Shown piece after piece: positions 4,219 through 31,905 of a stretch of DNA of 64,000 nucleotides (the first letter of the stretch is position 1; each line of letters opens with the position of its first letter). The stretch is from Sphingopyxis sp. QXT-31 (GTDB lineage Bacteria; Pseudomonadota; Alphaproteobacteria; Sphingomonadales; Sphingomonadaceae). A program made the position numbers and the translations under genes. The notes beneath the pieces were generated by a model. The model was not told where the DNA came from, ran no database searches, and was given only the letters and a program-made list of their open reading frames with translations. The stretch is from the NCBI RefSeq assembly GCF_001984035.1, contig NZ_CP019449.1, positions 682,001 to 746,000 of the forward strand, written 5' to 3'.

Positions 4219-5112
4219 TCATTCTCCTTCTTGAGTTGCAGTCAACGGGGCGAGGGTTCGCGAGAGAAAATCGCGCAGGATTGGGACGATTTCGTCCGCC
4301 TTCTCCTCAAGGGCGAAATGCCCGGTGTCGAAAAAGTGGAGTTCCGCCTCGGGAAGGTCGCGCAAATAGGCGTGCGCGCCGTCTGTCATGAAGATCGGAT
4401 CATTTCTGCCCCAAAGGATCAGCGTCGGGGGACGATGTGCGCGAAAATATTGGTGAAATGCGGGATAGAGCGCGACATTGGTTTGATAGTCCCGGATGAT
4501 GTCGAGCTGAATTTCGGTCGCGCCCGGTCGGTCGAGAAAATGCTGGTCGGTCAGCCAAGCCGCAGGATCGATCCGCTCCGGTTCCGAAGCGCCCGTGAGA
4601 TATTGAACGCGCGTGCCATTGAGCGTCAAAAAGGGCCGCATCGCATCGCGGTTTGCCTGTGGATCGGCCCAATAAGCGCGAGTGGGGGCCCAGAAATCGC
4701 CCATGCCCTCTTCATAGGCATTGCCGTTCTGGACGATCAGGGCCGTGATGCGATCGGGATTGGCGACCGCCAGGCGAAAGCCGGTCGGCGCGCCATAATC
4801 CATGACATAGAGCGCGAAGCGCTCGATGCCGAGCTGGTCGAGAAAGCTCGCGACGATTTTCGAGAAGTTTTCAAAGCTGTAGTCGAAAGCTTCTGTCGGG
4901 GGCATCTCCGACAGGCCAAATCCGGGAAGGTCGGGCGCGATCACATGGAAGCGGTCGGCCAGTGCCGGAATGAGGTTCCGGTACATATGCGACGAGCTCG
5001 GGAAACCGTGAAGCAGGACGACCACCGGCGCGCCGCACTCGCCCGCCTCGCGGTAGAATATGTCCAGCCCAGCGACTTTGGCGGTGCGATGACAGGTGAG
5101 GGGGTACGTCAT
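4219..5112 (-). CDS. Alpha/beta hydrolase of the epoxide hydrolase / haloalkane dehalogenase type, cytoplasmic
   Basis: 297 residues with the oxyanion-hole motif LLHGFPSSSHMYRN, the nucleophile elbow VMDYGAP (Asp nucleophile, as in epoxide hydrolases and haloalkane dehalogenases rather than Ser esterases), an acid near LWGRNDPIF and the catalytic His in DTGHFALEE. There is no signal peptide. It is clearly paralogous along its length to the exported hydrolase at 5908-6879 (shared motifs [33 protein letters not shown]). Substrate unknown. Twelve bases separate it from the esterase gene upstream, and three from the isochorismatase gene downstream. Confidence 0.85.
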   Translation of the reverse strand: MTYPLTCHRTAKVAGLDIFYREAGECGAPVVVLLHGFPSSSHMYRNLIPALADRFHVIAPDLPGFGLSEMPPTEAFDYSFENFSKIVASFLDQLGIERFALYVMDYGAPTGFRLAVANPDRITALIVQNGNAYEEGMGDFWAPTRAYWADPQANRDAMRPFLTLNGTRVQYLTGASEPERIDPAAWLTDQHFLDRPGATEIQLDIIRDYQTNVALYPAFHQYFRAHRPPTLILWGRNDPIFMTDGAHAYLRDLPEAELHFFDTGHFALEEKADEIVPILRDFLSRTLAPLTATQEGE

Positions 5113-5124
5113 GGGGCCGTCTTC

Positions 5125-5856
5125 CTACGCCGCAGCGGCGGCAGTGGCCGCCGCGACGATAAAGGCGGCGACCTCGCGTGGATGCGACAGCATCACGGCA
5201 TGGCTGCTGTCGATTTCCGAAAGCGTGGCGCCGGCGCGTCCGCCCATGCGTCGCTGTGCGCTCGGCGGCACCATCTTGTCAGCCGACGCGACCAGATAGA
5301 AGCTGGGCTTTGTCTTCCACGCCGCATTGGTGAGCCGTGCGGTTGCCGCGCCGAGCCCCCACGGCAATTGTGCGGCCGCCATGAAGCCCGTGGTCGCGGC
5401 ATCGACGTCCGCAGCGAAGGCCGCGCCAAATCGGGCCGGATCGACGATGAGGTAACCGTCTTCGGTGGGGACGACGGGTGCCTTGGCCTCCCCAGGTTCG
5501 CCGGCGGCTTCGTTGAGCTCGGCCACCGATTCTCCGACATCGGGAACAAATGCCCCAATGTAGGCAAGTCCTTTGACCTTGCGATCGACACCGGCTTCGG
5601 AGATGACCGCTCCGCCGTAGCTGTGGCCGACCAGTAAAACCGATTGTCCAGCGTCCGAAATAAGCCGCTTCGTCGTCGCGACGTCGCCCTCGAGCGAGAT
5701 CGTCGGGTGCTGGGCTACGAGTACTTCAAATCCGCGACCAACGAGGTCGTCATGAACCTGTCGCCATCCCGAGGCATCCACAAAGGCGCCGTGTACAAGG
5801 ACGATCGAAAGGGTTGGCGCGCCAGCTTCGTGGGCGCCTGTGGCGGTAATGGTCAT
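5125..5856 (-). CDS. Alpha/beta hydrolase, EstC-like serine esterase
   Basis: 243-residue alpha/beta-fold hydrolase with a Ser nucleophile in the elbow LVGHSYGGAVI, oxyanion motif VLVHGAFVDASGW and a C-terminal His in DSSHAVMLSHP. This arrangement matches short single-domain carboxylesterases of the EstC/salicylate-esterase-like group. There is no signal peptide. An AAAGGA ribosome site precedes the ATG. It sits between two paralogous Asp-nucleophile hydrolases but belongs to a different branch. The C-terminus ends in an Ala-rich run. Substrate not predictable. Confidence 0.83.
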   Translation of the reverse strand: MTITATGAHEAGAPTLSIVLVHGAFVDASGWRQVHDDLVGRGFEVLVAQHPTISLEGDVATTKRLISDAGQSVLLVGHSYGGAVISEAGVDRKVKGLAYIGAFVPDVGESVAELNEAAGEPGEAKAPVVPTEDGYLIVDPARFGAAFAADVDAATTGFMAAAQLPWGLGAATARLTNAAWKTKPSFYLVASADKMVPPSAQRRMGGRAGATLSEIDSSHAVMLSHPREVAAFIVAAATAAAAA

Positions 5857-5907
5857 CTCATTTCCTTTCGGGGTGGTGCCGCGGGGCGAGGCCCCGCGGA
5901 TGTCACG

Positions 5908-6879
5908 TCACTTGCAAATCTTGCGGTCGAGAAAGTCGCGAATGAGCGGCGCCATCACGTCGAGTCGGTCCTCCAGCGCGAAGTGGCCGCTGTCGAGGAT
6001 ATGCATCTCGGCGTCGGGCAGATCGCGCAGATAGGGGTGCGCGCCGGCTTCGGGAAAGATGACATCGTTTTTGCCCCAGACGATCAGCGTCGGCGGCTTT
6101 CGTTCGCGGAAGAAGGCCTGGAATTGCGGATAGAGCGGGACGTTGCTGCCGTAATCGCCGAGAAGATCGAGCTGGATGTCCTTGTTACCCGGCCGATCGA
6201 GCAGTGCCTGATCGTGAACCCAATTGTCCGGGCTGATCCGCGCGATGTCGCCCATACCGTCGGTGTACTGAAATTTGGTCGTCTCGAGCGTGAGGAGACC
6301 GGCGAGGGCTTCTCGGCGCTCTGGCGTCCTCTCGGCCCAGTAGGCCTTGATCGGATCCCAGAAGGCCGCGAGCCCCTCGGTATAGGCATTGCCGTTCTGG
6401 ACGATCAGACTGTCGACCCGCTCCGGATGCTTGAGCGCGAGCCGGTATCCGATCGGGGCGCCATAATCCATGACGTACATGCTGTAGCGTGTTGCGCCGA
6501 CCTGTTCGGTGAGCTTGTCGACGACGACGGTGAGGTTCGCGAAGGTGTAGGCGAATTTCTCGTGGTCGGGCGCGTCGCTCTGGCCGTAGCCCGGATAGTC
6601 CGGCGCGATGACGCGGTAGCGGTCGGCGAGCAGCGGAATGAGATTGCGGTACATGTGCGACGAAGTCGGGAAGCCGTGAAGCAGCAGGATGACAGGGGCG
6701 TCCTTTGGACCGGCTTCGCGATAGAATACCTTCACGCCGTCTATCTTTGCGCTCTTGTAGTGAATGACGGGTACCGCCTTCGCCGCAGACACGGGTTTTA
6801 GGGGCGTACATGCCGCATCGGCGGCGACCGGACTGATCGCGATGATCGCGGCCATGGCGGTAACGAGATGTGTCTTCAT
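5908..6879 (-). CDS. Exported alpha/beta hydrolase (epoxide hydrolase / dehalogenase type)
   Basis: The ATG at 6879 begins a typical Sec signal peptide ([16 protein letters not shown], cleavage likely after AADA), preferred over an upstream in-frame start that would bury it. The mature enzyme has [14 protein letters not shown], nucleophile elbow [18 protein letters not shown] and DSGHFALED, the same Asp-His-Asp layout as the paralogue at 4219-5112. The signal sequence puts this copy in the periplasm. First gene of the seven-gene minus-strand run; the promoter should lie in the gene-free stretch above 6880. Confidence 0.85.
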
Positions 6880-7579
6880 GATCCTTGCCTTTCGAATGGG
6901 GTGCAGATCGGTCAGCACCTTGCGAAAAGCGGGCTATCATCGGCCAGGACATCCACCGGGATAAATAAGGGTAAAAAGTTGAACACTCGGCTTTACCAGT
7001 CGCCGTCGGAGGATGGATCCTTTTTACAGCGGTCCCGGTTTGGGCGCGGGCAAATCGCAAGGGAGGCTATGCACATCTGTCCGCTTTCGCCGGTTCGACT
7101 TCCAAAAGCTGCCGGTCTGCAATCGGCCAATCGCAGCCAATCGCCAAGGAAGGTGCAGCGCGCGGTGATAGGAGGACGTTCATCGAAGCCGTCGCCACTC
7201 GCGGCGCGCAGGGGGCATTTTTGGGGGCATGTCTAAGAGGTTTATTGTCATATTATATATATCAAATATTTACCCATTAATTTCGGTTCCCGCTACCGCT
7301 CCAATTTCTCATCCCATGATATTCGTATTCGTCTGGATATGGTCCGGAAACTTAACGGGTGCGGTCTGATCATCCGCGCATTCCATACCGCGACCGGGGC
7401 GAACGGGCCGACCGCGATCCTCCCGCCATTACTACGTTTCCGTATGAACGATATCAGGTGGACCTTGGCGAGGCGCGATCGGATCTATCACCCAGATGTC
7501 GGTCGCTCCCATTTTTGCTGATGTCCCGGCGCCACCGGGCAAGATAGTCTCCTTCTCAAAATGACATGAGGAGGATGCG
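6880..7579. other. Gene-free stretch with an AT-rich island
   Basis: About 700 bases with no credible coding sequence. It must hold the promoter of the minus-strand hydrolase run and that of the plus-strand catabolic operon. Around 7240-7330 the base composition turns sharply AT-rich (alternating TATATA), just after a direct repeat of GGGGGCAT (two copies five bases apart, about 7208-7228). At 7284-7303 a fragment reads like the 3' end of a tRNA. Possible remnant of an integration boundary. Confidence 0.5.
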
Positions 7580-8344
7580 ATGGATCTGGGTCTGGCCGGC
7601 AAGAAGGTGATCATCAACGGCGGCGCGCACGGGCTGGGGCTCGCCTCGCTCAAGATTTTCGCCGCCGAGGGCGCCGACGTCGCTTTCTTCTCGCGCGATG
7701 CCGACAAGGTCGCGGCCGCGGTGGCGGCGATCGATGCGGCGGGGCCTGGCAAGGTCTTTGGCGAACAGTTCGACATGACGGGCAACCCCGACGGCTATCG
7801 CGCCTGGCTCGAAAAGGCCCGCGATGCGCTCGGCGGCTGCGACATCTTCATCCACACCGCGAGCTCGTCGGGGCAGGGCGCGACCGGCGACTGGCAGCGC
7901 GGTCTCGACATGGACATCATGGGCGCGGTCCACGGCGTCGAGGTGCTGACCGAGGCGCTGGCGGCGTCGGGGTCGGGGTCGATCATCTTCATGTCGTCGA
8001 CCGCGGCGGTCGAGACCTTCATCGTGCCGCAGGCGTTCAATGCGCTGAAGGCGGCGCTGATCACCTATGGATCGCAGCTGAGCCAGGCACTCGCGGCGCA
8101 GAATATCCGCGTCAACATCGTCTCGCCCGGCGCGATCTATTATCCCGGCGGCAATTGGGAGGTCATCAAGTCGGCCGTGCCGCCGCTCTACGAAGCCACG
8201 CTCGCGCAGATGCCGATGGGGCGTTTCGGCGAGCCCGAGGAAGTGGCGAAGGCGATCGTCTTCATGGCGTCGCCGGCCTGTCCGTACATGACCGGCGCGC
8301 ATCTCGTCGTCGACGGCGGCTTCACCAAGCGCGTCCAGTTCTAG
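7580..8344 (+). CDS. SDR-family protein lacking the catalytic tyrosine
   Basis: 254-residue Rossmann-fold short-chain dehydrogenase/reductase: the cofactor motif is GGAHGLG near the N-terminus, the catalytic Ser is in FMSSTAAVE, and the C-terminal VVDGGF is typical of classical SDRs. The YxxxK signature is altered: the Tyr is Phe (F-N-A-L-K), with Lys kept. Classical members need that Tyr as proton donor, so this copy may be a weak reductase, use another residue, or act non-enzymatically. A GAGGA ribosome site precedes the ATG. First gene of the plus-strand operon that runs to 12511. Confidence 0.85.
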   Translation: MDLGLAGKKVIINGGAHGLGLASLKIFAAEGADVAFFSRDADKVAAAVAAIDAAGPGKVFGEQFDMTGNPDGYRAWLEKARDALGGCDIFIHTASSSGQGATGDWQRGLDMDIMGAVHGVEVLTEALAASGSGSIIFMSSTAAVETFIVPQAFNALKAALITYGSQLSQALAAQNIRVNIVSPGAIYYPGGNWEVIKSAVPPLYEATLAQMPMGRFGEPEEVAKAIVFMASPACPYMTGAHLVVDGGFTKRVQF

Positions 8345-8354
8345 GCCCCGCGCG

Positions 8355-9002
8355 ATGAAACTCTATCAGTCGCTCGGCCCCAATCCGCGCGTGGTGCTGA
8401 TGTACCTCGCCGAGACCGGGGTCGCGGTCGATTGCCAGTTCGTCGACATCATGGCGGCCGAGAATCGTCAGCCCGAATTTTGCGCCAAAAGCCCGCTCGG
8501 GCACACACCGCTGCTCGAACTGGACGACGGTAGCTGCATCGCCGAAAGCATCGCGATCTGCGAATATCTCGATGAGACGCAGACCGCGCACGCCTTGTTC
8601 GGTGCGAGCGCGGAGGAACGGGCGCAAACGCGGATGCTGGTGCGGATCGTCGACCAGCTCGTCGTCGTGCCGATGACCGCGGGTTTTCGCGGCGCCGAGG
8701 GGCTGCCGATGTTCCAAAGCCGGCTGCTCTGCCTGCCCGATGCCGCCGCCGACCTGAAGCGGCTCGCCGCCGACGGGCTGGCGAAGGTCGATGGGATCGT
8801 CGGTGTGGGACCGTGGCTTGCGGGCGATCGCTTCAGCCTGGCCGACATCCTCCTCTTTTGCTTCGTCGAGTTCGGCGCGATGGTCGGCCAGCCGGCCGAT
8901 CTCGCGCTCGCCAATCTGGCCGCCTGGCGGACACGCGTCGCCGCGCGACCCAGCGCTGCCGCCAGCGCCAACCCTCAACTGGGCATCGGAGAGCCTGCAT
9001 GA
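8355..9002 (+). CDS. Glutathione S-transferase family protein
   Basis: 215 residues with an N-terminal thioredoxin-like domain (SPLGHTPLLEL with cis-Pro; glutathione-binding Glu64-Ser65 in IAESIAICEYL) and an all-helical C-terminal domain ending around FSLADILLFCF. Such GSTs in catabolic clusters open epoxides, isomerise or dehalogenate intermediates with glutathione. It starts ten bases after the SDR stop and its TGA overlaps the ATG of the E1 alpha gene (ATGA), so it is co-translated with the thiamine-enzyme module. Substrate unknown. Confidence 0.87.
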   Translation: MKLYQSLGPNPRVVLMYLAETGVAVDCQFVDIMAAENRQPEFCAKSPLGHTPLLELDDGSCIAESIAICEYLDETQTAHALFGASAEERAQTRMLVRIVDQLVVVPMTAGFRGAEGLPMFQSRLLCLPDAAADLKRLAADGLAKVDGIVGVGPWLAGDRFSLADILLFCFVEFGAMVGQPADLALANLAAWRTRVAARPSAAASANPQLGIGEPA

Positions 9003-9979
9003 CTAAAGCGACGATCGACCGCGACAAGCTGCGCGACATCTACACCCGCACGATGCGCGTCGCGCGCGCCGACGAGAAGTTCCGCTCGCTGCTGATGACC
9101 GGCAAGCTCGCGGTCATCTATTACACCGTGCGCGGGCAGGAGCTGGTGTCGGCGGCGGCGATGGCGGCGCTCGAGCCGAGCGACTATCTGGTCACCACCT
9201 ATCGCGGCCAGCACGACCAGATCGCCAAGGGCGTACCGCTCAATCCGCTGTTCGCGGAGATTGCGGGCAAGGTCGGCGGTACTTGCCGCGGCAAGGGCGG
9301 GTCGATGCACATCACACATCCCGAAACCGGGGTGATGGTGACCACCGGCGTCGTCGGATCGGGGCTGCCGATCGCCAACGGCCTCGCGCTCGCGTCGCAG
9401 AACCGCGGCGACGGCAAGGTGACGATGGTCTGCTTCGGCGACGGCGCGACCAATATCGGCGCCTTCCACGAGGCGATGAACATGGCGCAGCTGTGGAAGC
9501 TGCCTGTGATCTTCCTCTGCCAGAACAACCGCTATGGCGAGCACACCGCCTTTGCCGATCACACCAAGGTCGATTCGATCGTCACCCGCGCCAAGGCCTA
9601 TGGAATGGCCGGCGTGCATGTCGACGGCAACGACGCCATCGCGATGTACAACACCACCAAGGCCGCGGTCGATCGCGCCCGCGCGGGCGAGGGGCCGACG
9701 CTGGTCGAGGCGATGTGCTACCGGATGCTCGGGCATTTCTTCGGCGCCGATTTCTCCTACATGCCGAAGGAGCATCTGGCCGAGATGGCGGCGGAGGATC
9801 CGCTGCCGCGGCTCCGCCAGCTGATGCTCGACCATCAGTTTACCGAGGCGGAGCTCGACGCAATCGTCGCCGACCTCGATGCCCAGATGGACGCTGCTGC
9901 CGAATTCGCCGCGAATAGTCCGCTGCCGGGGCCGGAGGAAATCCGCAAGGATGTCTTCGAAGAGGAGATCGCGGCATGA
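8999..9979 (+). CDS. Thiamine-diphosphate dehydrogenase E1 component, alpha subunit (AcoA/PdhA-like)
   Basis: 326-residue E1 alpha of the 2-oxo-acid/acetoin dehydrogenase family. The thiamine diphosphate-Mg motif runs from GDG (147-149) to NN (176-177), and the conserved segments TYRGQHDQIAKG and GKGGSMH are present. The ATG at 8999 is chosen because it overlaps the GST stop and matches the family N-terminus. The enzyme would decarboxylate or cleave an alpha-keto or alpha-hydroxyketone substrate and pass the acyl group to a lipoyl carrier. It pairs with the beta subunit directly after it (ATGA overlap). Without an E2 or E3 nearby the true substrate is open; AcoA-like size and motifs favour acyloin or diketone cleavage over pyruvate dehydrogenase. 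Confidence 0.9.
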   Translation: MTKATIDRDKLRDIYTRTMRVARADEKFRSLLMTGKLAVIYYTVRGQELVSAAAMAALEPSDYLVTTYRGQHDQIAKGVPLNPLFAEIAGKVGGTCRGKGGSMHITHPETGVMVTTGVVGSGLPIANGLALASQNRGDGKVTMVCFGDGATNIGAFHEAMNMAQLWKLPVIFLCQNNRYGEHTAFADHTKVDSIVTRAKAYGMAGVHVDGNDAIAMYNTTKAAVDRARAGEGPTLVEAMCYRMLGHFFGADFSYMPKEHLAEMAAEDPLPRLRQLMLDHQFTEAELDAIVADLDAQMDAAAEFAANSPLPGPEEIRKDVFEEEIAA

Positions 9980-10968
9980 GCGCGCAGATCACGATGACGC
10001 AGGCGATCAACCGCGCGATCGACGAGGCGATGGCCGAAGATGAAGGCGTGATCTTGCTGGGCGAGGATGTTGCCGCGAAGCAGGGCGGCGGGGTATTCAA
10101 AATCTCGGCGGGGTTGACCGAAAAATATGGCGAGCACCGCGTCCGCGCGACGCCGATTTCGGAGCAGGCGATCGTCGGCGCGTGCGTCGGCGCCGCGCTC
10201 GCGGGCTTCCGCCCTATTGCCGAGATCATGCTGATGAACTTCGTGACCGTCGCGATGGACCAGATCGTCAACCACGCCGCGAAGCTCCGCTTCATGTCGG
10301 GCGGGCAGACCAACGTACCGCTGGTGATCCGTACCACGACCGGGGTCGGGGTCGGCTTCGGCGGCCAGCATAGCGACATGCTCGAGGCCTGGTTCGCGCA
10401 TGTCGCGGGGCTGAAGATCGTCACCCCGTCGAACGCCGCCGACGCGCAGGGGCTGATGCGCGCGGCGATCGCGTGCAACGACCCGGTGATCTTCATCGAG
10501 AATATCCTCTGCTACGGCCTGAAATCCGACGATCCGGGCCCGGGTCATTTCGTGCCGCTGGGCAAGGCGGCGATCGCGCGCGAAGGCAGTGACTGTTCGA
10601 TCGTCACCTATGGCCGCACCGTGCTCGACGCGCTTGAAATCGCGGGCAAGCTTGCCGACGAGGGGATTTCGGTCGAGGTCATCGATCTCCGCACCATCGC
10701 GCCTTACGACGAGGCGACGGTCACGGCATCGGTCGAAAAGACCGGCCGCGCGGTCGTGCTGCACGAGGCGGTGAAGCAGTACGGCACCGGTGCCGAAATC
10801 GCCTCGCGGCTAAACGAAAAGCTGTTCGGCAAGCTCAAAGCCCCGGTGACGCGCATCGGCGGTGCCTTCTCGGCAGTGCCGATGGCGAATGCGCTCGAAC
10901 AGGCGTGGATCCCGAACAAGGATGCGATCGCCGATGCAGTGCGCACAGCAGTCAACTGGAAGGGCTGA
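9976..10968 (+). CDS. Thiamine-diphosphate dehydrogenase E1 component, beta subunit (AcoB/PdhB-like)
   Basis: 330-residue transketolase-like E1 beta. The N-terminal pyrimidine-binding domain includes ILLGEDVA, the Glu-rich EHRVRATPISEQ segment and GVGVGFGGQHSD; the C-terminal transketolase domain includes SIVTYG and VVLHEAVKQYGTGAEIA. It forms the alpha2beta2 E1 with the alpha subunit encoded immediately upstream (ATG and TGA overlap) and is followed three bases later by the lipoyl-domain gene. Length is normal for the family. Confidence 0.92.
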   Translation: MSAQITMTQAINRAIDEAMAEDEGVILLGEDVAAKQGGGVFKISAGLTEKYGEHRVRATPISEQAIVGACVGAALAGFRPIAEIMLMNFVTVAMDQIVNHAAKLRFMSGGQTNVPLVIRTTTGVGVGFGGQHSDMLEAWFAHVAGLKIVTPSNAADAQGLMRAAIACNDPVIFIENILCYGLKSDDPGPGHFVPLGKAAIAREGSDCSIVTYGRTVLDALEIAGKLADEGISVEVIDLRTIAPYDEATVTASVEKTGRAVVLHEAVKQYGTGAEIASRLNEKLFGKLKAPVTRIGGAFSAVPMANALEQAWIPNKDAIADAVRTAVNWKG

Positions 10969-10971
10969 GCC

Positions 10972-11202
10972 ATGGCGGAAGAGCTGCGTATTCCCAAGGT
11001 CGGCATGTCGGCGACCGAAATGACGCTCAACGAATGGATGTTCGGCGACGGCGAGCGCGTCGAGGTCGGCGACATCATCTATACGGTCGAGACCGACAAG
11101 ACGACGGTCGAGGTCGAGGCGCAGGTCGCCGGGATCATCCGTCCGATCGGGGTGGAGGGCGAAGTCTATCCGGTCGGCGCGCTCGTCGGCACGATCGAAT
11201 GA
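10972..11202 (+). CDS. Free-standing lipoyl-domain protein
   Basis: Only 76 residues, consisting entirely of one biotinyl/lipoyl domain: IPKVGMSATEM at the start, the lipoylation hairpin ETDKTT with Lys43 as modification site, and a closing GALVGTIE. In acetoin or pyruvate dehydrogenases this domain is the N-terminal part of a much larger E2 acyltransferase; here the subunit-binding and acyltransferase domains are absent and the next gene starts at once (ATGA overlap), so it is not truncated by a frameshift. It presumably acts as a mobile acyl carrier for the E1 pair. Confidence 0.92.
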   Translation: MAEELRIPKVGMSATEMTLNEWMFGDGERVEVGDIIYTVETDKTTVEVEAQVAGIIRPIGVEGEVYPVGALVGTIE

Positions 11203-11612
11203 CTCCGCTCGAAGCCAGCAAGGCGATGTATGCGGCGGTCGCCAAGGGCGACTGGGACGAAGTCGCGACCTTCATGGCCGACGATCTCGTCATCTATGAA
11301 CCCATGTCGCTGCCTTATGGCGGCGAATGGCGCGGGCGTGACGCGCTGCAAAAGCTGTATGCGCATGTCATGGGGTTTTGGGAGGATCCCGTCGTCCAGT
11401 GGCAGGAACTGGTCGGCGGCGAGAAATATGCCGTCGCTCTGCTCCATTTCACTGTGACCGCAAAATCGAGCGGCAAACGTTTCGAGACGCATATCGCCGA
11501 GGTCACCGAGTTCGACGACGCGGGCAAGATGGCGTCGATGCGCATCCATTATTTCGACACCGCCCACATGGTCGAGCAATTGAAGGCTGCGGGCGTTCCG
11601 GGCGCGGCATGA
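11199..11612 (+). CDS. SnoaL-like / NTF2-fold protein
   Basis: 137 residues of the NTF2-like cone fold: N-terminal helix LEASKAMYAAVAKGDWDEV, central strand EWRGRDALQKLY, then strands with KYAVALLHFTVTA and HIAEVTEFDDAGK. Members include polyketide cyclases, steroid isomerases and limonene-epoxide-hydrolase-like proteins that act on hydrophobic ring compounds. The ATG at 11199 overlaps the lipoyl gene stop, and its own TGA overlaps the next ATG, so it is embedded in the operon. Specific reaction not predictable. Confidence 0.8.
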   Translation: MTPLEASKAMYAAVAKGDWDEVATFMADDLVIYEPMSLPYGGEWRGRDALQKLYAHVMGFWEDPVVQWQELVGGEKYAVALLHFTVTAKSSGKRFETHIAEVTEFDDAGKMASMRIHYFDTAHMVEQLKAAGVPGAA

Positions 11613-12511
11613 AGAAAATAATCGTCCTCGGCGCGCCCGCCGACCAAGGTATCCCGCTGCTGACGGCACTGAAGGCGCGCGGCCTGGAACCCGCCGCCGG
11701 GGTGCGGAGGCCGGGCGCGATGGCGGCGACGGTGCACCCCGATGTGCCCGAGGTCGCGGCCGACCTTTACGACGTCGCCAGCCTGACCGCCGCGTTCGAG
11801 GGGCAGGATGCGCTCGCCATGCACCTGCCGTTCGAATTCGACCGCGAGCGCGCGGCGACGATGGGACGCAACATCGCGGCAGCGGCGAGCGCGGCGGGGC
11901 TGCAGAAGATCGTCTTTAACACGAGCTGCTTCGTCGCCGACCACGAGTTGGGCCTGTCGGCGCACGACGGGCGGCGCGATATCGAGCGTGCGATCCACGA
12001 GAGCGGCGTGCCCTATGTGATCATCGAACCGATGGTGTTCATGGACAATATCACCCGCATCTGGTCGCGCCCGGCGATCGTGAACAGCGGGGTCTTCGCT
12101 TATCCGGCCGCCGAGACGCTGAAGATCAGCTGGGTCTGCCTGGAAGATGTCGCGGCCTATATGGTCTCGGCGCTGTTGCACGAAGATCTGATCGCCGACC
12201 GGATCGCGGTGGGCGGACCCGAAGCGCTGGTGGGCGACGAGGTCGCCGAGCGATTGTCCGTTGCGGCGGGACGTCCGGTGCGCTTCCAGAGCCTGTCGCC
12301 CGACGAATTTGCCGCGCGGATGAGCGAGTTGGTCACCGGATCGCGCGAGGTGCAGCCCGCGAGCATCTATGACGGGATGGCCAAATTCTATCGCTGGTAC
12401 AACGACCAGCCGGTCTCGCCCGTCGCGCTCGACGCGGTGCCGGCGGCGCGGTTGCTGGGGGTGACGCCGACGCCGTTTGCGGAGTGGGCGGTGCGGCAGG
12501 ACTGGGGCTAA
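11609..12511 (+). CDS. NmrA-like NAD(P)-binding protein
   Basis: 300 residues with an N-terminal Rossmann motif IIVLGAPADQG (a variant of GATGxxG), followed by a segment like the NmrA/HSCARG atypical SDR group (IVFNTSCFVAD, then PYVIIEPMVFMDNI) and no YxxxK catalytic pair. Such proteins are quinone reductases, NADP sensors or dehydrogenases. Last gene of the seven-gene plus operon. Its stop overlaps the stop of the convergent isomerase gene by four bases. Confidence 0.82.
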   Translation: MKKIIVLGAPADQGIPLLTALKARGLEPAAGVRRPGAMAATVHPDVPEVAADLYDVASLTAAFEGQDALAMHLPFEFDRERAATMGRNIAAAASAAGLQKIVFNTSCFVADHELGLSAHDGRRDIERAIHESGVPYVIIEPMVFMDNITRIWSRPAIVNSGVFAYPAAETLKISWVCLEDVAAYMVSALLHEDLIADRIAVGGPEALVGDEVAERLSVAAGRPVRFQSLSPDEFAARMSELVTGSREVQPASIYDGMAKFYRWYNDQPVSPVALDAVPAARLLGVTPTPFAEWAVRQDWG

Positions 12512-13305
12512 GCCGCGAACCAGCGCCGCGTCGCGGCGAGCAGCGCGCGCGCGCGGTCAGCGGGGTCGGGATGGCCGTCGCGCAAGGCAGCGCTACGCAG
12601 TTCGACGCTGAGCGGCGTGACCGACGGTAACTGCGCAAGCAGCTCGTCCAGCGGCAGTTCGCCCTCGCCCGGCATCAGGCGAAGGTCGAGCGCCTCGCGG
12701 ATGATTTCCGGGATGTCGCTCGGCGGCGGGCCGTGTGCCGGCGCATCGCAGAATTGCGCGTAGGGAAAGCGCCGCGGATCGACCGATCCGAGGTCGGCGG
12801 GCGCGCCGCCGGTGCGCGCAAGATGCAGCGGGTCGATCAGCAGGCCGAGATTGTCGCAATCGGCAGCATCGAGCAGGGCGAGCGCGCTCGCGATGTTCCC
12901 GACCGTGGTGAAAGCTGCAAATTCCAGACAGGCGCGCAGGCCCGCCGCGGCGGCATGATTGCCGAGCCGGTGCAGCTTGTCCGCGGCGCGGGCCGCGTCA
13001 TCTTCCGAACTGACGATCAGGACGTTGCGCGCGCCGATCGCCGCGCCCGCGTCGATCGCGGCGAAATGCGAGGCGTCGTCGGGACCGGGCTTCAGCCAGA
13101 TCACCTCGATATCGAGGATCGCAAGCCCGGCGTCGGCGGCGCGGTCGCGCACCGCGATCGTCGTCGCGGGCGTCCAGCTTTCGGGATCGTACCAGATGCC
13201 GGTCGCCGGCCAGCCGCCCGCGATCGCGGCCGCGACCGTTTGTTCGGGCGAAAATTCGGGCATGACGCCCGCCGCAAGCGATAGCAGCGGGGCGGTGCGC
13301 GCCAT
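12508..13305 (-). CDS. Sugar phosphate isomerase/epimerase-like TIM-barrel protein
   Basis: 265 residues resembling the AP-endonuclease-2/xylose-isomerase-like TIM barrel: DIEVIWLK, LEFAAFTTVGN, NLGLLIDPLHLARTGG and AQFCDAP show the spaced acidic and His metal ligands. The ATG at 13305 shares one base with the TGA of the Rieske gene upstream, so coupling is likely; a longer in-frame start would lie inside that gene. Members of this fold in aromatic-degradation operons act as isomerases, epimerases or dehydratases. Exact reaction unknown. Confidence 0.8.
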   Translation of the reverse strand: MARTAPLLSLAAGVMPEFSPEQTVAAAIAGGWPATGIWYDPESWTPATTIAVRDRAADAGLAILDIEVIWLKPGPDDASHFAAIDAGAAIGARNVLIVSSEDDAARAADKLHRLGNHAAAAGLRACLEFAAFTTVGNIASALALLDAADCDNLGLLIDPLHLARTGGAPADLGSVDPRRFPYAQFCDAPAHGPPPSDIPEIIREALDLRLMPGEGELPLDELLAQLPSVTPLSVELRSAALRDGHPDPADRARALLAATRRWFAA

Positions 13306-14732
13306 CAGGCGGGCAACTCGCCGTCGATATATTTCCCCAGCGTGCGGTGGAAATGCCGGATCCGGCTTTCCTGATAATGGCCGAGCTCGATCACCCCGTT
13401 GGGCGACGATTTCATCCCCTCCTGCACATAGGGGAGATTCTCCATATCCTGGTCGAACACCCCCGCGAGCGCGGCGCCGATCAGGTGGCTCGCGCTGGAA
13501 AAGGGCTGGTCGTCGGGGATCAGGTGCATCGGTGCCGACCTGGGCGGTTTTTCGCCCTTGGGCGTGCGCATCAGGATGCGGACCTCCATCAGGCTGTGGT
13601 CGACGTCGCCCCAGGGCCGCCAGCGGTAGACGATGTTGGGGGTCAGCCCGCCCCACGGCGCCCAGTTGGGGAAGACATTATAGGTGAAATTGTCGAGCAT
13701 CTCGCTGTCGGTCGCGCCCGAATAATCATGCCCGTTCATCGCCGAAAAGGCGGCGCGGTTGGCCTCGGCGAGCACTTTGCGCGCGAGCATCGGATCGTCG
13801 GCATCGAAACCCATGAGGTCGTCGGCGGACGCGGTGCTGCGCCGCGCGCGGCTGTCGCCGCCGCCGATGAACTCCTCGAGCGATTTCAGGACATAGAATT
13901 GATCCTTGCCCTTGATATGCGGCGACATCGCGCCCGCCGGCGTGATCGCGCGGTTGAGGAAGTCGCCATAGAGGTCGTAGCGCGTGTTCGCGTCGGCGGT
14001 GAAGCCCAGGATCTGCGGGTGGGTGACGATGCTGTGCCAGGCCTCCATGAACGCTTCGGCGACCGCCTTCCAGTTCGCCGGAATGACGCGGCCGACCCAG
14101 GCGCCGGTGTGGCATTCGTCCAGCCGCCAATTGTCATAATGCTCGATGCCGGGGCCGACCCAGTCGCGGAAGCCGGGCAGATCGTGATTCTCGGTGACGA
14201 GGATGAAGCCCTGCCAACTCTCGACCTTCAGCTCGGGCAGGCTCATGTCTTTGGCTTCGAGATGCTTGAAGTCCCACGCGCAGGGGGCTTCCTTGAAGCG
14301 GCCGTCGTGGTGCCAGGAAAATCCGTGGAAGGGGCAGCGCAGGTTCACCGCGGGGCCGCTCTCGGTGCGCAGCTTGCGGCCGCGGTGTAGGCAGACATTG
14401 TAGAAGGCTTTGACCGATCCGTCCTTCTGACGGACGAGCAATATGCTCTTTTCGTTGATGTCATAGACGACGGTGTCGCCGGGGTTCGGCATATCCTCTT
14501 CGCGCGCGGCGAACTGCCAGATGTTCGGCCACATCTTCTCGCGCTCGAGCTTCGCCCAATCCTCGCTGACATAACGCTCGATCGCGATCGGCTCGTCGCC
14601 GAGTTCCTGATTGGATTCAGCGAACAGATAGTCGGGGACGCGCCGGGTGTCGGCGTTGAGCATGTCGGTGTAGCTGGTACCCGGGCAGCGATCGTCGCGA
14701 TTCTGGTCCTGGGGCGGGGAGAGGTCGTTCAT
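13305..14732 (-). CDS. Rieske non-heme iron oxygenase, alpha subunit (second)
   Basis: 475 residues. The Rieske [2Fe-2S] ligands are C-x-H at 114/116 (CLHRGRK) and C-x2-H at 133/136 (CPFHGFSW); the mononuclear iron site is in the catalytic domain around NWKAVAEAFMEAWHS and THP. It would hydroxylate or O-demethylate an aromatic or alicyclic ring. The ATG at 14732 is preceded by GGAG; a longer reading frame lacks a ribosome site. It follows the other Rieske gene by 17 bases. No ferredoxin or reductase is encoded nearby, so electrons must come from elsewhere. Confidence 0.9.
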   Translation of the reverse strand: MNDLSPPQDQNRDDRCPGTSYTDMLNADTRRVPDYLFAESNQELGDEPIAIERYVSEDWAKLEREKMWPNIWQFAAREEDMPNPGDTVVYDINEKSILLVRQKDGSVKAFYNVCLHRGRKLRTESGPAVNLRCPFHGFSWHHDGRFKEAPCAWDFKHLEAKDMSLPELKVESWQGFILVTENHDLPGFRDWVGPGIEHYDNWRLDECHTGAWVGRVIPANWKAVAEAFMEAWHSIVTHPQILGFTADANTRYDLYGDFLNRAITPAGAMSPHIKGKDQFYVLKSLEEFIGGGDSRARRSTASADDLMGFDADDPMLARKVLAEANRAAFSAMNGHDYSGATDSEMLDNFTYNVFPNWAPWGGLTPNIVYRWRPWGDVDHSLMEVRILMRTPKGEKPPRSAPMHLIPDDQPFSSASHLIGAALAGVFDQDMENLPYVQEGMKSSPNGVIELGHYQESRIRHFHRTLGKYIDGELPA

Positions 14733-14749
14733 CGATTGCTCCGGAAGGG

Positions 14750-15979
14750 TCAGGCGATCTGGTCGAGCGGCATCTTGCACGCCGCGGCGATCGAGCGGTG
14801 GACGCCGTGCAGCGCCGGCTCGTTTGCGCCGAGCACGACGTGGAAGTCGGCGGGGGCGGTGACGAGGTTCGCGTAGCCGTTGCTGGCGACGCGATAATCT
14901 TCGGTCTGCACGACGGTGGCGGTCATGTCATAGGCCATCTCGCACATCTTGCGATGCTCCTCGCCCTCGACGCCGAACGGCGCGTAGACTGCGAACTGGC
15001 AGAACATCTTGCCCGCGCCGTCGGGGAACAGCCGGAAGACCTGCGTGAAATAGACCCCCGGCGTCACCGCGCCGAAGAAGACGACGGTGTTGGGGAACAG
15101 GAAATGCACCCCGCCATAGTCGGTCTCGGGCCATTCGCTTTCGTCCTTGCCGACCAGTTCGCCGATCGACAGGTCGGGAAAGCTGACGCGGTGATGGCGG
15201 CCCATCGGCTCATAGACGTTGCGGTCGCTGTAATGCGTGCCGCCGATCGTCGAAGCGTGGAGCATCTTGAAATGATAGCTCTCGCCATAGGTGTCGAGCG
15301 CGAATTTCCAGTTGGAATCGGCGGTCAGGATGCCCTTCTTGACCGGCTCGGCGCGGTGCAATTCGAGCTGCGCGAGCACCGGGCCGAAGTCGCCGAGATG
15401 CGCGGCGGCATCGATCGGCGCGCCGTCCGGATTGGCGCGCACGAAGATCAGGCCGAGATGCTCGGCGCAGGGCAGTTCGATCAGGTTGCGCGCGCCGATC
15501 TCGCAATTGGCGAACCCTTCCTTGCCGGGCTGGCCGACGAGCTGGCCGGCTGGGTCGAAGGTCCAGGCGTGAAACGGACAGACGAGGCGCGGGCGCGGCC
15601 CGCTCCACGGCTCCTTTTCCTCGACCAGCTTGGCGCCGCGGTGGGTACACATGTTGAGAAAGGCGCGTGCGACCCCGTCCTTGCCGCGCGCGACGAGGAT
15701 AGACGGGCCGACCGAGTCGAACACCAGCGTATCGCCGGTCTTCGGAATGTCGCCGGACAGGCCGGCGACGATCGGCTCGTTGCGGAAGATATGCTCCATC
15801 TCGGCGGCGTTGCGCTTTTCGCTCATATAGACGGACTTGTGCAGCGGCAGCGGCCCCTCGGCGCGGTCGGTGCGGTTCTCGGCAACGATGGCGACCAGCT
15901 TGCGCAATCCGGTGCGTGCGTTGCGCTTGCGGACCGTGAACCAGTCCTGCGGTGCGATCTTCGGATCGGACTCGGCCAT
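14750..15979 (-). CDS. Rieske non-heme iron oxygenase, alpha subunit (first)
   Basis: 409 residues with Rieske ligands Cys111/His113 (CTHRGAK) and Cys134/His137 (CPFHAWTF), and a catalytic domain with the iron-binding segment NWKFALDTYGESYHFKMLH. It resembles single-component-terminal ring-hydroxylating oxygenases and is only distantly similar to the neighbouring Rieske protein. First gene of the operon; transcription probably starts in the 98-base divergent region shared with the VOC gene, where an inverted repeat lies. Confidence 0.9.
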   Translation of the reverse strand: MAESDPKIAPQDWFTVRKRNARTGLRKLVAIVAENRTDRAEGPLPLHKSVYMSEKRNAAEMEHIFRNEPIVAGLSGDIPKTGDTLVFDSVGPSILVARGKDGVARAFLNMCTHRGAKLVEEKEPWSGPRPRLVCPFHAWTFDPAGQLVGQPGKEGFANCEIGARNLIELPCAEHLGLIFVRANPDGAPIDAAAHLGDFGPVLAQLELHRAEPVKKGILTADSNWKFALDTYGESYHFKMLHASTIGGTHYSDRNVYEPMGRHHRVSFPDLSIGELVGKDESEWPETDYGGVHFLFPNTVVFFGAVTPGVYFTQVFRLFPDGAGKMFCQFAVYAPFGVEGEEHRKMCEMAYDMTATVVQTEDYRVASNGYANLVTAPADFHVVLGANEPALHGVHRSIAAACKMPLDQIA

Positions 15980-16738: not shown

Positions 16739-17605
16739 CTAACTATTCGCCCCCAGATACCCCAGCTGCCCGGCCTTGAAGATCGTCTGCGCGCGGTTGA
16801 CCGAGTTTAGTTTCTCGCCCGCGCGATGCACATGATAGCGCACGGTCGCGTGGCTCAGCGAGATGATCATGCCGATCTCGCGGTCGGTCTTGCCGATCGC
16901 GGCCCAGCGCAGGCATTCGACTTCGCGCTTCGACAGTTCGCAGTCCGACGGGATCCGCCGCTTGGTGCGCATCGCCGAGGCATAGCCCGCGATGAAGCGC
17001 CGCGTCGCCGCGCCCAGGATATGCCCGATTGCCGCGAACTGATCACTGAGGTCGGCGATCTCATGATCCACCGGATGATAGCTGTTCGCCGAAATCTGGC
17101 CGAAGGGCAGATGGACCGGCACCACGATCGCCGCCTGATAGCGCTGGTTCGCGGCGAAGTAGCGCGAGAGGTCGATATCGTTGAGATAGGGATTGGGCAC
17201 CGCAGTGCGGAACCCCTCGCCGTTGCACCAGAAGGCCTCGCTCTCGTAGCGGCACGAGCGCGGCAGCGGCGAGTGGAGCGCTAGCCTGTGATCCTCCCAC
17301 CAGCGCTCGCCGTCGCCGAGCCAGCCGAACAGGTCGGCGGCGAGCACCGTGCCGTCGGCATCGACCATCGTTTCCTTGGATGCGATATCGTCGCAGAGCG
17401 CGGCGCGGAGGCCGTGGGCGGCGGCGAAATCGCGCAGCGCGACGGCCGCGTCGTGGATATCCTCCACGCAGCGGACCGTGACCGCTTCGACGAGCGCCCT
17501 GGTGTTCATTGGCGGTGCAAGCCCGTCGTCCGGCAGCCTGGCTGCTCTCTCTCCCACAGGCGGGACTATTTCACACTGGTCGGCAAGTCGCAATGCATGT
17601 GTCAT
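16739..17605 (-). CDS. LuxR-family transcriptional regulator
   Basis: 288 residues: an N-terminal ligand-binding region of the autoinducer-domain type (segments around WWEDHRLALHSPLPRSCR and AAIVVPVHLPFGQI) and a C-terminal LuxR helix-turn-helix (LSKREVECLRWAAIGKTD, then ATVRYHVHRAGEKL). No luxI is nearby, so it is a solo LuxR that probably senses a substrate or intermediate. Its ATG overlaps the stop of the acyl-CoA dehydrogenase gene (ATGA), so it is co-expressed with the P450/thiolase operon and probably regulates it. A shorter start at an internal Met (residue 33) is possible. Confidence 0.87.
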   Translation of the reverse strand: MTHALRLADQCEIVPPVGERAARLPDDGLAPPMNTRALVEAVTVRCVEDIHDAAVALRDFAAAHGLRAALCDDIASKETMVDADGTVLAADLFGWLGDGERWWEDHRLALHSPLPRSCRYESEAFWCNGEGFRTAVPNPYLNDIDLSRYFAANQRYQAAIVVPVHLPFGQISANSYHPVDHEIADLSDQFAAIGHILGAATRRFIAGYASAMRTKRRIPSDCELSKREVECLRWAAIGKTDREIGMIISLSHATVRYHVHRAGEKLNSVNRAQTIFKAGQLGYLGANS

Positions 17606-18810
17606 AGGCGTAGCACCGTCTTTGCTATGATGTTTTTCTGGACTTCGCTCGAACCGCCGAAGACGGTCCAGGCACGGCTGTTGAGATAGCGCGCGGCCGC
17701 GACCTGCGCATCCTCGTCGCCGATCGGCGGCGGCGCTTCGTTGCCGTAGAGCGGGCGAACGGTCGGCAATTGCAGGCCGTCATAGCCGTGCAGGTCCATC
17801 GCGAGCCCGTCGATGCGCTGGTGGATTTCGGAGGAGAGCAATTTGACGAGCGAGGTTTGCGGTCCCGCCGGACGGCCCTTGGCGATGTCGGCCAATATGC
17901 GCAACTCGGTGGTTTCGAGCGCTTCGGCCTCGAGCCGCAGCCGCGCGATGCGCGTCGCGATCAGGATGTCGCCGCCGAGCGACCCGTTGTGCCCGCTCGG
18001 TGCGACGCCCGCGAGTTCTTCCAGATGGTCGATCGCGCGGATCAGCCGCGGCGCGTGGAACGATCCGCCGCGCTCGTTCTCGAGCAGATATTTGGCGATC
18101 GTCCAGCCTTGGCCTTCTTCGCCGATGCGGTTGTCGACCGCGGTGCGCGCACCGTCGAGGAACACTTGGTTGACCTCGTGATCGCCCGCCATGGTGATGA
18201 TCGGGCTGACGGTTACCCCGGGCTGGTCCATCGGGATGAGCAGGAAACTGATCCCCGCCTGCTTGCGGACTTCGCCGTCGGTGCGGACGAGGCAGAAGAT
18301 CCAGTTCGCATGGTGCGCGTGCGTGGTCCAGATCTTCGAGCCGTCGACGATATATTCGTCGCCCTCGCGGCGGGCGCGGGTGCGGAGCGAGGCGAGGTCG
18401 GAGCCGCTTTGCGGTTCCGAATAGCCCTGACACCAATAATCGGTGCCGGCGCGGATCGCGGGCAGGAAGCGGTCCTTCTGTTCCTGCGTGCCGAAGGCGC
18501 AGATGACCGGGCCGACGAGGCGCAGCCCGAGCACCGAAAGCGCCGGGGCGCCCGCGATCGCGCATTCCTTTTCGAAGATATAGCGCTGCATCGGCGTCCA
18601 GCCGGTACCCCCGCAATCCTCGGGCCAGTGATAGGCGACCCAGCCTTTGTCGTTCAGGATGCGGTGCCAGACGAGACCGATGTCGGGCTCGACGAAGACA
18701 CCGGGGGTGCGCCGTGCGCCATCGCGCACATAATCCGGCAGCGACGTGCGCAGAAAGTCGCGGACCTCCTCGCGAAAATCCTGTTCGTCCTTGGTAAGAT
18801 CCAGATCCAT
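17602..18810 (-). CDS. Acyl-CoA dehydrogenase, long form
   Basis: 402 residues with the three-domain ACAD layout: helical N-terminus (LTKDEQDFREEVRDFLR), FAD-binding middle (CQGYSEPQSGSDLA, then SKIWTTHAHHANW) and C-terminal helices ending AWTVFGGSSEVQKNIIAK. It would introduce an alpha-beta double bond into an acyl-CoA. It and the shorter ACAD at 20352-21413 flank a thiolase and a DUF35 gene, as in steroid side-chain operons where two unlike ACADs form an alpha2beta2 enzyme. Seven bases after the thiolase stop; overlaps the LuxR start. Confidence 0.9.
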   Translation of the reverse strand: MDLDLTKDEQDFREEVRDFLRTSLPDYVRDGARRTPGVFVEPDIGLVWHRILNDKGWVAYHWPEDCGGTGWTPMQRYIFEKECAIAGAPALSVLGLRLVGPVICAFGTQEQKDRFLPAIRAGTDYWCQGYSEPQSGSDLASLRTRARREGDEYIVDGSKIWTTHAHHANWIFCLVRTDGEVRKQAGISFLLIPMDQPGVTVSPIITMAGDHEVNQVFLDGARTAVDNRIGEEGQGWTIAKYLLENERGGSFHAPRLIRAIDHLEELAGVAPSGHNGSLGGDILIATRIARLRLEAEALETTELRILADIAKGRPAGPQTSLVKLLSSEIHQRIDGLAMDLHGYDGLQLPTVRPLYGNEAPPPIGDEDAQVAAARYLNSRAWTVFGGSSEVQKNIIAKTVLRL

Positions 18811-18817
18811 ATGATTT

Positions 18818-19966: not shown

Positions 19967-20355
19967 GGCTGGCGCTCCGGACGAAAGGCATAGGTCGAGC
20001 GGCTGGCGTCGAAAGGCACCACCGCAAACTCCATCGGCATCCCGATGGCCAAGTCGGCTACGTCCGCATCGACGATGCGCGTCTCGACGATCACTTCGCC
20101 GGGCAGTTCGACATAGCCGATCAAAAAGGGCTGGAAGGGCTGCGGGCCGCTATAGGGCTCCTTGGGTTCGAAACCCTGTGTCGTCCATGACCAGAGCGTG
20201 CCCTTGCGCGACAGTGGGACGGGTTCGACCAGCGCGGCGGCGTCGCCATCGGGGACCGGAAAGACGATCTCGCCACTGGCGCGCCGCCCGCCAATCAGCC
20301 GGGGTTCGGCCTCGTCGGTCCACAGGCCGGGGGCGATGGGGGCGAGCGCGCTCAC
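19963..20355 (-). CDS. DUF35/OB-fold partner protein with a cysteine-free ribbon
   Basis: 130 residues starting at a GTG (20355) that overlaps the stop of the ACAD gene upstream (GTGA). The layout matches DUF35 proteins: a short N-terminal helix, a rubredoxin-like ribbon, then an OB fold (GTLWSWTTQGF, PFLIGYVELP, AIGMPMEF). In the usual ribbon four Cys hold zinc; here the equivalent stretch reads GGRRASGEIVFP and has none. Such proteins bind acyl-CoA and activate their thiolase-like partner, which is the next gene. Confidence 0.85.
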   Translation of the reverse strand: MSALAPIAPGLWTDEAEPRLIGGRRASGEIVFPVPDGDAAALVEPVPLSRKGTLWSWTTQGFEPKEPYSGPQPFQPFLIGYVELPGEVIVETRIVDADVADLAIGMPMEFAVVPFDASRSTYAFRPERQP

Positions 20356-26658: not shown

Positions 26659-26774
26659 ATCTCTCCCTGATCGCACCCTACGCCGCCGTCGCTGGCAAGC
26701 GACTGGCACTTTTGGCGGTGGCTGGCGGCAGAGCGCGGGCGCAGTTTCGATGCAAAGAAACGGGGAGAGTATCG

Positions 26775-30316: not shown

Positions 30317-30329
30317 CGGTATTCTCTCC

Positions 30330-31787: not shown

Positions 31788-31905
31788 CCTCGTCCCTCTT
31801 TTCGCTCGATAGTGCATCAAACAAGGGGCGGTGCAACGCGCCGCCCCCTGTTCGCTTGGGCTCCCCCTTTTGCGATCCCGCCGTGCCCGTGGCGGGAAGG
31901 TTCGA

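Follow-up and report, generated by a model that had tools for sequence, protein, structure and literature searches.

In 2-oxoacid and acetoin dehydrogenases, an E1 enzyme dependent on thiamine diphosphate (ThDP) acts together with an E2 acyltransferase and an E3 lipoamide dehydrogenase, and the lipoyl domains of such enzymes are usually the tethered arms of a giant E2 core. Acetoin operons have the gene order E1–E1–lipoyl, and the same order is found at the locus described here, positions 7580–12511 of a 64,000-nucleotide stretch of the Sphingopyxis sp. QXT-31 genome (NZ_CP019449.1, 682,001–746,000; the whole stretch is called the window, and positions are those of the window unless a genome or another locus is named). 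At this locus a complete E1 pair is followed by a 76-residue, free-standing lipoyl domain protein, hereafter LIP, and the window genome is without a dedicated E2 core. Both E1 and E2 can use free lipoyl domains in vitro. Further parallels, likened to the present system by description only, are the ThDP-dependent cleavage of a ring ketone by cyclohexane-1,2-dione hydrolase and the transfer of an acyl group from a lipoyl domain to an acceptor other than coenzyme A (CoA) by the hybrid transketolase–pyruvate dehydrogenase NapB/NapD.

A stand-alone lipoyl carrier is also described in LbpA of sulfur oxidation, which, as presented in the consulted part of PMC6067878, is GcvH-like and has Hdr-like proteins as its partners in place of a ThDP-dependent E1; LbpA clusters, like a second E1–LIP trio of the window genome, carry an LplA-like gene. 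Among open-access papers, surveyed by title and the beginning of the abstract, we found none that describes a catabolic cluster pairing an E1 with a free lipoyl protein. We put at about one in two the reading that the E1 of this locus cleaves a C–C bond of a ring-ketone catabolite and acylates LIP as a diffusible carrier, from which the acyl group would be handed on in trans. The free arm stands beside a separate core in some lineages and with E1 alone in others, and in Sphingopyxis, Blastomonas and Erythrobacteraceae free LIP has been conserved along with a single large catabolic cluster. The arrangement thus predicts an acyl-lipoyl carrier biochemistry and gives a handle on that cluster, and it flags genes that are named E2 acyltransferases in the sources though they encode no acyltransferase.

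A conserved free-standing lipoyl carrier

Seven close-packed genes on the plus strand, in the order SDR–GST–E1α–E1β–LIP–SnoaL–NmrA, occupy 7580–12511. E1α (8999–9979; Pfam E1_dh, 248.8 bits; best PDB match human pyruvate dehydrogenase (PDH) E1α) carries the ThDP domain, E1β (9976–10968; Pfam Transket_pyr and Transketolase_C) has intact QHSD and TPISE motifs, and LIP follows at 10972–11202. The remaining members are a short-chain dehydrogenase (SDR; 7580–8344; adh_short_C2), which is the operon's first gene, a glutathione S-transferase (GST)-family protein (8355–9002; GST_N/GST_C), a SnoaL-like protein (11199–11612; SnoaL_2) and an NmrA-like NAD(P)-binding protein (11609–12511; NmrA). Stop and start codons overlap as ATGA at the GST/E1α junction, and overlaps also occur at E1α/E1β, LIP/SnoaL and SnoaL/NmrA. 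An earlier note, made from the letters of this DNA alone, had listed the E1 pair, the 76-residue lipoyl protein with its Lys43, the SnoaL and NmrA genes and the overlapping upstream GST; these genes, their order and their coordinates were confirmed.

In the general Pfam scan, which included no search aimed at the GcvH family, the only match of LIP was Biotin_lipoyl (PF00364), covering residues 4–75, and Pfam together with the alignment places Lys43 in a DKT turn. AlphaFold2 predicted a lipoyl-type fold of seven strands with the lysine between two of them; the best model reached a predicted local distance difference test (pLDDT) score of 92.4, and two of the five models were poor (63.6 and 40.6). 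In a Foldseek search with the LIP model, E2 lipoyl domains took the top ranks and biotinyl domains appeared from rank 8 downwards. That the Pfam family spans both types, and that biotinyl domains appear lower in the Foldseek list, would suit a LIP that is biotinylated and serves a carboxylase, a reading that we consider highly improbable: E2 lipoyl domains match LIP best in sequence and in fold, the lysine motif is DKT or DKS in most rows and not the MKM of biotinyl domains, LIP adjoins E1, and the paralogous second trio carries a lipoate-ligase-like gene.

For locus counts, the best 80 of 380 confirmed E1β relatives in genome contigs were retained. LIP is the next gene after E1β in all 80, at a distance of −1 to 18 bases in 78 and of 126 and 224 bases in the other two; the DK[TSA] lysine motif is present in 80/80, and the C-terminus always lies 33–37 residues past the lysine. 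A protein search with LIP gave 526 matches, with a usual length of 76 residues among the 120 matches listed. The ratio of nonsynonymous to synonymous divergence (dN/dS) of LIP is at most 0.47, with a median of 0.22 (79 of 80 pairs computable), and at the 13 loci with LIP identity of at least 85%, dN is 0.006–0.057 against a dS of 0.27–0.54. LIP is therefore a conserved free-standing carrier under purifying selection and no recent truncation. This bears out the view of the earlier note that an E2 core was not simply lost by frameshift; its concern that the short gene might be peculiar to this strain fell away, as all 80 loci carry a short LIP. An SDR homolog above 300 bits stands at 69 of the 70 relatives' loci with room, SnoaL follows LIP at 67 of 75, and NmrA lies within 4 kb at 33 of 75.

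The E1 subunits belong to the same two-subunit families as the E1 of PDH and of branched-chain 2-oxoacid dehydrogenase (BCKDH; TIGR03182, PRK09212; PDB 1ni4, 1um9) and share their ThDP and QHS motifs. TPISE and QHSD-type motifs were found in E1β of 80/80 relatives and GHFFG in all 78 E1α examined. The locus differs from those enzymes in having no linked full-length E2, in a carrier that is a separate protein and in an E1α that scores under both equivalog cut-offs (TIGR03182, 283.8 vs 393.85 bits; TIGR03181, 240.9 vs 411.35 bits); E1β is over the PRK09212 subfamily cut-off. Where human PDH has YRAHGF, whose histidine matters in PDH, the window E1α aligns YRGQHD, and YRGQGEQ occurs in 54 of the 78 E1α of the 80 loci; this difference does no more than hint at altered E1α chemistry. 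Relative to the acetoin dehydrogenase AcoA–AcoB–AcoC, the best NCBIfam match of LIP, under its cut-off, is the lipoyl segment (3–77 of 372) of the E2 PRK14875, and LIP ends where the rest of PRK14875 would start. Taken as a whole, the system has the E1 motifs, a lipoyl domain with a modifiable lysine and an E3 available in the genome, as 2-oxoacid and acetoin dehydrogenases do; what it does not have is an E2 core, either joined to the lipoyl domain in one protein or specified by a gene of the complex.

We examined the rest of the genome, a single contig estimated by tool to be 100% complete, for the absent components. It encodes three E2 catalytic domains, all in full-length open reading frames (ORFs; 424, 433 and 453 residues), and a catalytic-domain search of the whole genome found no free E2 core. 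Two lipoamide dehydrogenases over NCBI's cut-off lie far from the locus, none of them inside the window, and two LplA/LipB-family genes are present, one of them at the second trio. The statement of the earlier note that neither E2 nor E3 is present thus holds at the locus and not genome-wide and, because E3 is present elsewhere, only the dedicated E2 core is missing. The other genomes with a LIP ortholog (LIP+) are similar: in 25 of 27, the E2 domains number exactly three and lie in ORFs of at least 406 residues. G274 has a fourth E2, and G243 a fourth together with a 135-residue partial match; each fourth E2 carries a lipoyl domain and adjoins E1 genes of its own, that of G274 about 10 kb from LIP. 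No free E2 core was seen beside LIP in these 27 genomes; in G437, a more distant proteobacterium that served as the positive control, the E2 core was found beside LIP. Using the window genome's own cores of PDH, 2-oxoglutarate dehydrogenase and BCKDH as queries, we likewise found no E2 near LIP in the flanks examined of the 80 relatives, which extend at least 5 kb past LIP in 68 and 0.9 kb in the shortest.

The three full-length E2s also allow LIP to be a spare domain or dispensable relict, with E1 docking on the PDH or BCKDH E2. This seems unlikely given that LIP length is conserved in 80/80 loci, that dN/dS is low and that LIP is co-inherited with a Rieske oxygenase gene.

Co-inheritance with a catabolic cluster

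The trio of E1α, E1β and LIP is co-inherited with a catabolic cluster of about 31 kb that encodes a Rieske oxygenase, acyl-CoA dehydrogenases, a thiolase/DUF35 pair and a CoA ligase. Of 296 genomes sampled from the order, 28 have a LIP ortholog, and 34 genomes without it (LIP−) were hand-picked from the remaining 268; some of these 34 (such as G291, G047 and G117) carry other free lipoyl genes. Two minus-strand genes of the cluster served as markers: Rieske oxygenase α subunit 1 (Rieske1; 13305–14744; Pfam Rieske/Ring_hydroxyl_A on the ortholog L001:12342–13814) and an SCP2-type thiolase (18818–19966; Thiolase_C_1). Orthologs of Rieske1 (at least 55% identity) occur in 28/28 LIP+ and 0/34 chosen LIP− genomes, and those of the thiolase (at least 66%) in 28/28 and 2/34, respectively; within the Sphingopyxis sample, Rieske1 is present in 4/4 LIP+ and 0/10 LIP− genomes. 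G065 and G203 also have both markers, at a distance of about 0.6 Mb or on a separate contig.

A third gene, for a carotenoid/stilbene cleavage oxygenase of the RPE65 type (ORF 30330–32009, minus strand, start probably later; Pfam RPE65), has orthologs (at least 63% identity) in 10 of 27 LIP+ genomes, G280 being left out, and in 0/34 LIP− genomes; because of this limited occurrence we regard it as accessory, and it was ruled out as a key to the substrate. The three identity thresholds were set after the rows had been inspected. At the search cut-offs alone, Rieske1 matched 33 of 62 genomes, the thiolase 38 of 62 and the RPE65-type oxygenase 51 of 61; the remaining listed rows are paralogs with identities of at most 41%, 39% and 37%, respectively. 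Fisher tests on this co-inheritance ignore kinship.

Synteny was assessed by comparing 40 kb around LIP in 20 of the 28 LIP+ genomes with the genes of the window. SDR, E1α, E1β and LIP were recovered in 20/20 and SnoaL in 17/20. Six minus-strand genes of the window have counterparts in 16/20: acyl-CoA dehydrogenase 1 (ACAD1; 17602–18810; Pfam on the longer frame 17602–19236), the thiolase, its DUF35/ChsH2-type oligonucleotide-binding-fold partner (ORF 19963–20631, true start probably later; OB_ChsH2_C), acyl-CoA dehydrogenase 2 (ACAD2; 20352–21458; Pfam on the longer frame 20352–22520), a zinc-binding-type dehydrogenase/reductase (23506–24522; ADH_N_2) and a molybdopterin oxidoreductase (24532–26784; Pfam). 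Rieske1 and a KstD-like flavoprotein were each found in 15/20, and the AMP-forming acyl-CoA ligase (ORF 28736–30487, minus strand, start probably later; Pfam; PRK06187 of NCBIfam, over cut-off) in most of the 20.

Three of these proteins bear on the substrate. In other Sphingopyxis, the KstD-like flavoprotein (549 residues; L001:9621–11270) is encoded between SnoaL and NmrA; its nearest PDB entries are 3-oxosteroid 1-dehydrogenases and its nearest NCBIfam model, under cut-off, is 4-oxocyclohexanecarboxylate 2-dehydrogenase. ACAD1 best matches, again under cut-off, the NCBIfam model of the pimeloyl-CoA dehydrogenase large subunit, and the thiolase is nearest to an SCP2-type thiolase and benzoylsuccinyl-CoA thiolase in PDB and to lipid-transfer-protein thiolases in NCBIfam. 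Together, these likenesses suggest that a ring ketone bearing an acyl side chain is catabolised. Steroid degradation as such was set aside: the consulted portions of a 2026 bile-salt paper on Caenibius (PMC12882949) and of a 2021 bile-acid review (PMC8399759) make no mention of lipoyl, pyruvate dehydrogenase or thiamine. The same portion of the review reports that, in Sphingobium Chol11 and its bile-acid-degrading relatives, no homologs of C3 side-chain enzymes, Sal2/Ltp2 among them, were found.

Separate E2 cores and the proposed fate of the acyl group

The reading preferred here, of C–C cleavage by E1 onto a diffusible LIP, treats the system as a 2-oxoacid/acetoin-dehydrogenase-type enzyme whose E2 has been taken apart. 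An E1α2β2 tetramer would serve one catabolic pathway, and the lipoyl arm would be the separate 76-residue protein. The cluster would degrade a ring-shaped (alicyclic, terpenoid or steroid-like) ketone, its oxygenase and dehydrogenases yielding a 2-oxo acid, an acyloin or a diketone; E1, for which C–C cleavage is plausible, would cut the bond adjoining the carbonyl and reductively acylate LIP. The acyl group would then pass to CoA in trans, through the product of a separate E2 core gene in several relatives and, in the window strain, most likely through a resident housekeeping E2 core, and the shared E3 would re-oxidise dihydrolipoyl-LIP. A more specific proposal, which we hold tentatively and think rather unlikely, is that the trio is a thiamine/lipoamide enzyme that opens the ring or cleaves a C–C bond of a cyclic ketone and leaves a thioester on diffusible LIP for an acceptor other than a dedicated E2. 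The Rieske oxygenase, the KstD-like flavoprotein and the dehydrogenases would in that case make a cyclic acyloin or diketone and E1 would cut its ring, which would be a ring cleavage distinct from the meta-cleavage, Baeyer–Villiger and retro-aldol routes.

More distant relatives show how an E2 can be divided. Plasmids of Paraburkholderia (two) and Diaphorobacter carry E1α–E1β–LIP(76) in the same order, with E1β 58–59% identical to that of the window, and add a separate core gene after LIP, which the window genome does not; these cores are about 249–275 residues long, and PF00198 alone was found in the one Burkholderiales core scanned by Pfam. The nearest outside relative, L224, has a GST, thiolase/DUF35 genes and an E2 core 5 kb from LIP. 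Because homologous operons and L224 carry separate core genes, the wider system is a split E2. Azospirillum and Streptomyces loci combine Rieske, flavoprotein, E1α, E1β and LIP with no E2 within the stretch, and a Thermus locus reads E1α–E1β–LIP(82). A phylum-wide search sampled 398 genomes and listed only the strongest matches, so that it gives no prevalence; from the plasmid matches (791 records), five of six for LIP and eight of the 60 listed for E1β were opened.

Among 29 annotated loci, chosen by hand, a short lipoyl ORF accompanies E1 in 21, one of which (L229) is at a contig edge. A separate core is present in 7 of the 20 informative loci, and none lies within the stretch in the other 13. 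The remaining loci comprise three with LIP and no E1, three with a full-length E2, one in which E1 and a core occur but LIP does not, and one with E1 by itself. The separate cores (ORFs of 230–334 residues) adjoin LIP in six relatives and lie 5 kb off in the seventh, L224, and every one contains a DHRxxDG or DHRVING motif. In an E1β tree of 34 rows, which carries a long-branch warning (L227 with the PDH row of the window genome), the window family, Burkholderiales, Azospirillum and Streptomyces fall in one 24-row clade (99/98), and L224 is sister to the window clade (98/94). The window is thus a member of the free-lipoyl E1 group as defined here by an E1α–E1β pair, a separate lipoyl protein of about 76–82 residues and an E1β in that clade. 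In light of these loci, the suggestion of the earlier note that a carrier operates instead of an E2 core stands for the window genome, which has no free core, and for the 27 LIP+ relatives, where none is beside LIP; it does not extend to Paraburkholderia, Diaphorobacter and L224. A normal E2 right after the trio, which the note had named as contrary evidence, has a partial counterpart in the separate core gene of the two Paraburkholderia and the Diaphorobacter operons; no E2 was found in the flanks examined of the 80 retained loci.

Several observations weigh against the preferred reading. The Burkholderiales cores score 304–408 bits against each other, but comparison with those of L224, L227, L228 and L138 gives no more than about 107; L143, L227, L228 and L098, which lie beyond the 24-row clade, have free LIP too; and L216, which is outside the clade formed by the window and L224, is likewise without a core. 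At the SnoaL/NmrA junction of the window (11609–11612), the KstD-like flavoprotein gene is missing, the rest of the genome not having been searched for it, and the thiolase ortholog occurs in two LIP− genomes, G119 and G125, the latter with thiolase/DUF35/ACAD genes but neither E1 nor LIP in the 20 kb examined. E1α chemistry is not fixed by homology, because the protein scores under the PDH equivalog cut-offs, and transfer through a housekeeping E2 in the window strain is something we infer.

Two of the seven core-bearing free-LIP loci (L227, L228) lie outside the 24-row clade, and the L224 core is closest, among eleven compared, to the full-length E2 of L102. Such dissimilarity among the cores makes repeated recruitment probable. 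For the window lineage, loss of a core and original absence are both conceivable; a single ancestral core lost in this lineage was dropped as a firm reading for the same reason.

The unlike cores shift weight from the preferred reading towards another, in which LIP takes an acyl group or electrons from E1 and the acyl is hydrolysed to the free acid and then activated to its CoA ester by the AMP-forming ligase of the cluster. The ligase is retained in most of the 20 genomes compared, the LIP-only loci L140 and L216 have ligases nearby, and the scheme would explain why no E2 core was kept and fits the absence of a shared ancestral core. L100 and L215 carry both a core and ligases, however, so that the ligase is not simply a substitute for the core; moreover, no linked thioesterase was recognised, and no homolog of the three α/β-hydrolase genes adjoining the operon turned up in the 40-kb stretches compared of the 20 relatives. 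On balance we see hydrolysis as possible, with appreciable weight, though still doubtful.

In a further speculation, the earlier note had the linked GST take over from E2 by releasing or transferring the acyl group via glutathione. In the window, GST overlaps E1α, and a same-strand GST stands upstream beside E1 at 21 of the 70 loci with room (L044 has one more, a weaker match on the opposite strand), with homologs also in the related clusters L216 and L224. The other 49 loci have no GST there and still carry LIP and no E2. GST is not a stand-in for E2, because L224 has GST together with a core, Sphingopyxis has GST without a core and the 49 loci have neither. As a universal partner GST was ruled out by the 21/70 count and by L224, and glutathione-dependent release, for which the counts leave no general role, strikes us as very unlikely. 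A survey of the E1–E1–lipoyl order, which the note had proposed, accordingly found its lipoyl gene short in 80/80 loci and its GST adjacent in 21/70 only.

Neighbouring genes and further trios

A further 27 kb or so of catabolic genes spans 12508–39309 and is in large part syntenic with the corresponding regions of other Sphingopyxis and of Erythrobacteraceae; it holds two Rieske oxygenases, two acyl-CoA dehydrogenases, thiolase/DUF35, a molybdenum oxidoreductase, a CoA ligase, a TonB receptor and a ThuA-like gene. Minus-strand members beyond those described above are a xylose-isomerase-like protein with a triose-phosphate isomerase barrel (12508–13302; its relative at L043:10593–11390 matches AP_endonuc_2), with homologs close to LIP in part of the 20-genome set; Rieske oxygenase α subunit 2 (14750–15979; Pfam); and a LuxR-type regulator with a GerE domain (16739–17605; Pfam), which is syntenic.

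On the other side of the operon, a row of three α/β-hydrolase genes occupies 4219–6918 on the minus strand. With a cut-off of E ≤ 1e-8, none of the 20 relatives showed a homolog of these genes in its 40 kb, and on this ground they were ruled out as a detached acyltransferase.

The window genome also contains a divergent second trio at 3.684–3.688 Mb (L098:6366–10081), arranged as SDR–E1α–E1β–LIP(76)–LplA-like with no E2 core, so that one genome holds two core-less trios; its nearest relative in the tree, L228, reads E1α–E1β–LIP–core–LplA. A further E1-type protein of about 762 residues, with α and β parts fused and no lipoyl domain listed near, is encoded at G000:C1:3457950–3458876. In the E1β clade of the window, L222, L223 and L225 place a free lipoyl gene beside one long E1 gene (676–713 residues, α and β apparently fused). 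The Sphingobium plasmid loci L101 and L104 combine a free lipoyl gene, a KstD-like flavoprotein and E1α–E1β with no E2 in the stretch, and the L101 trio adjoins homogentisate dioxygenase and fumarylacetoacetase genes.

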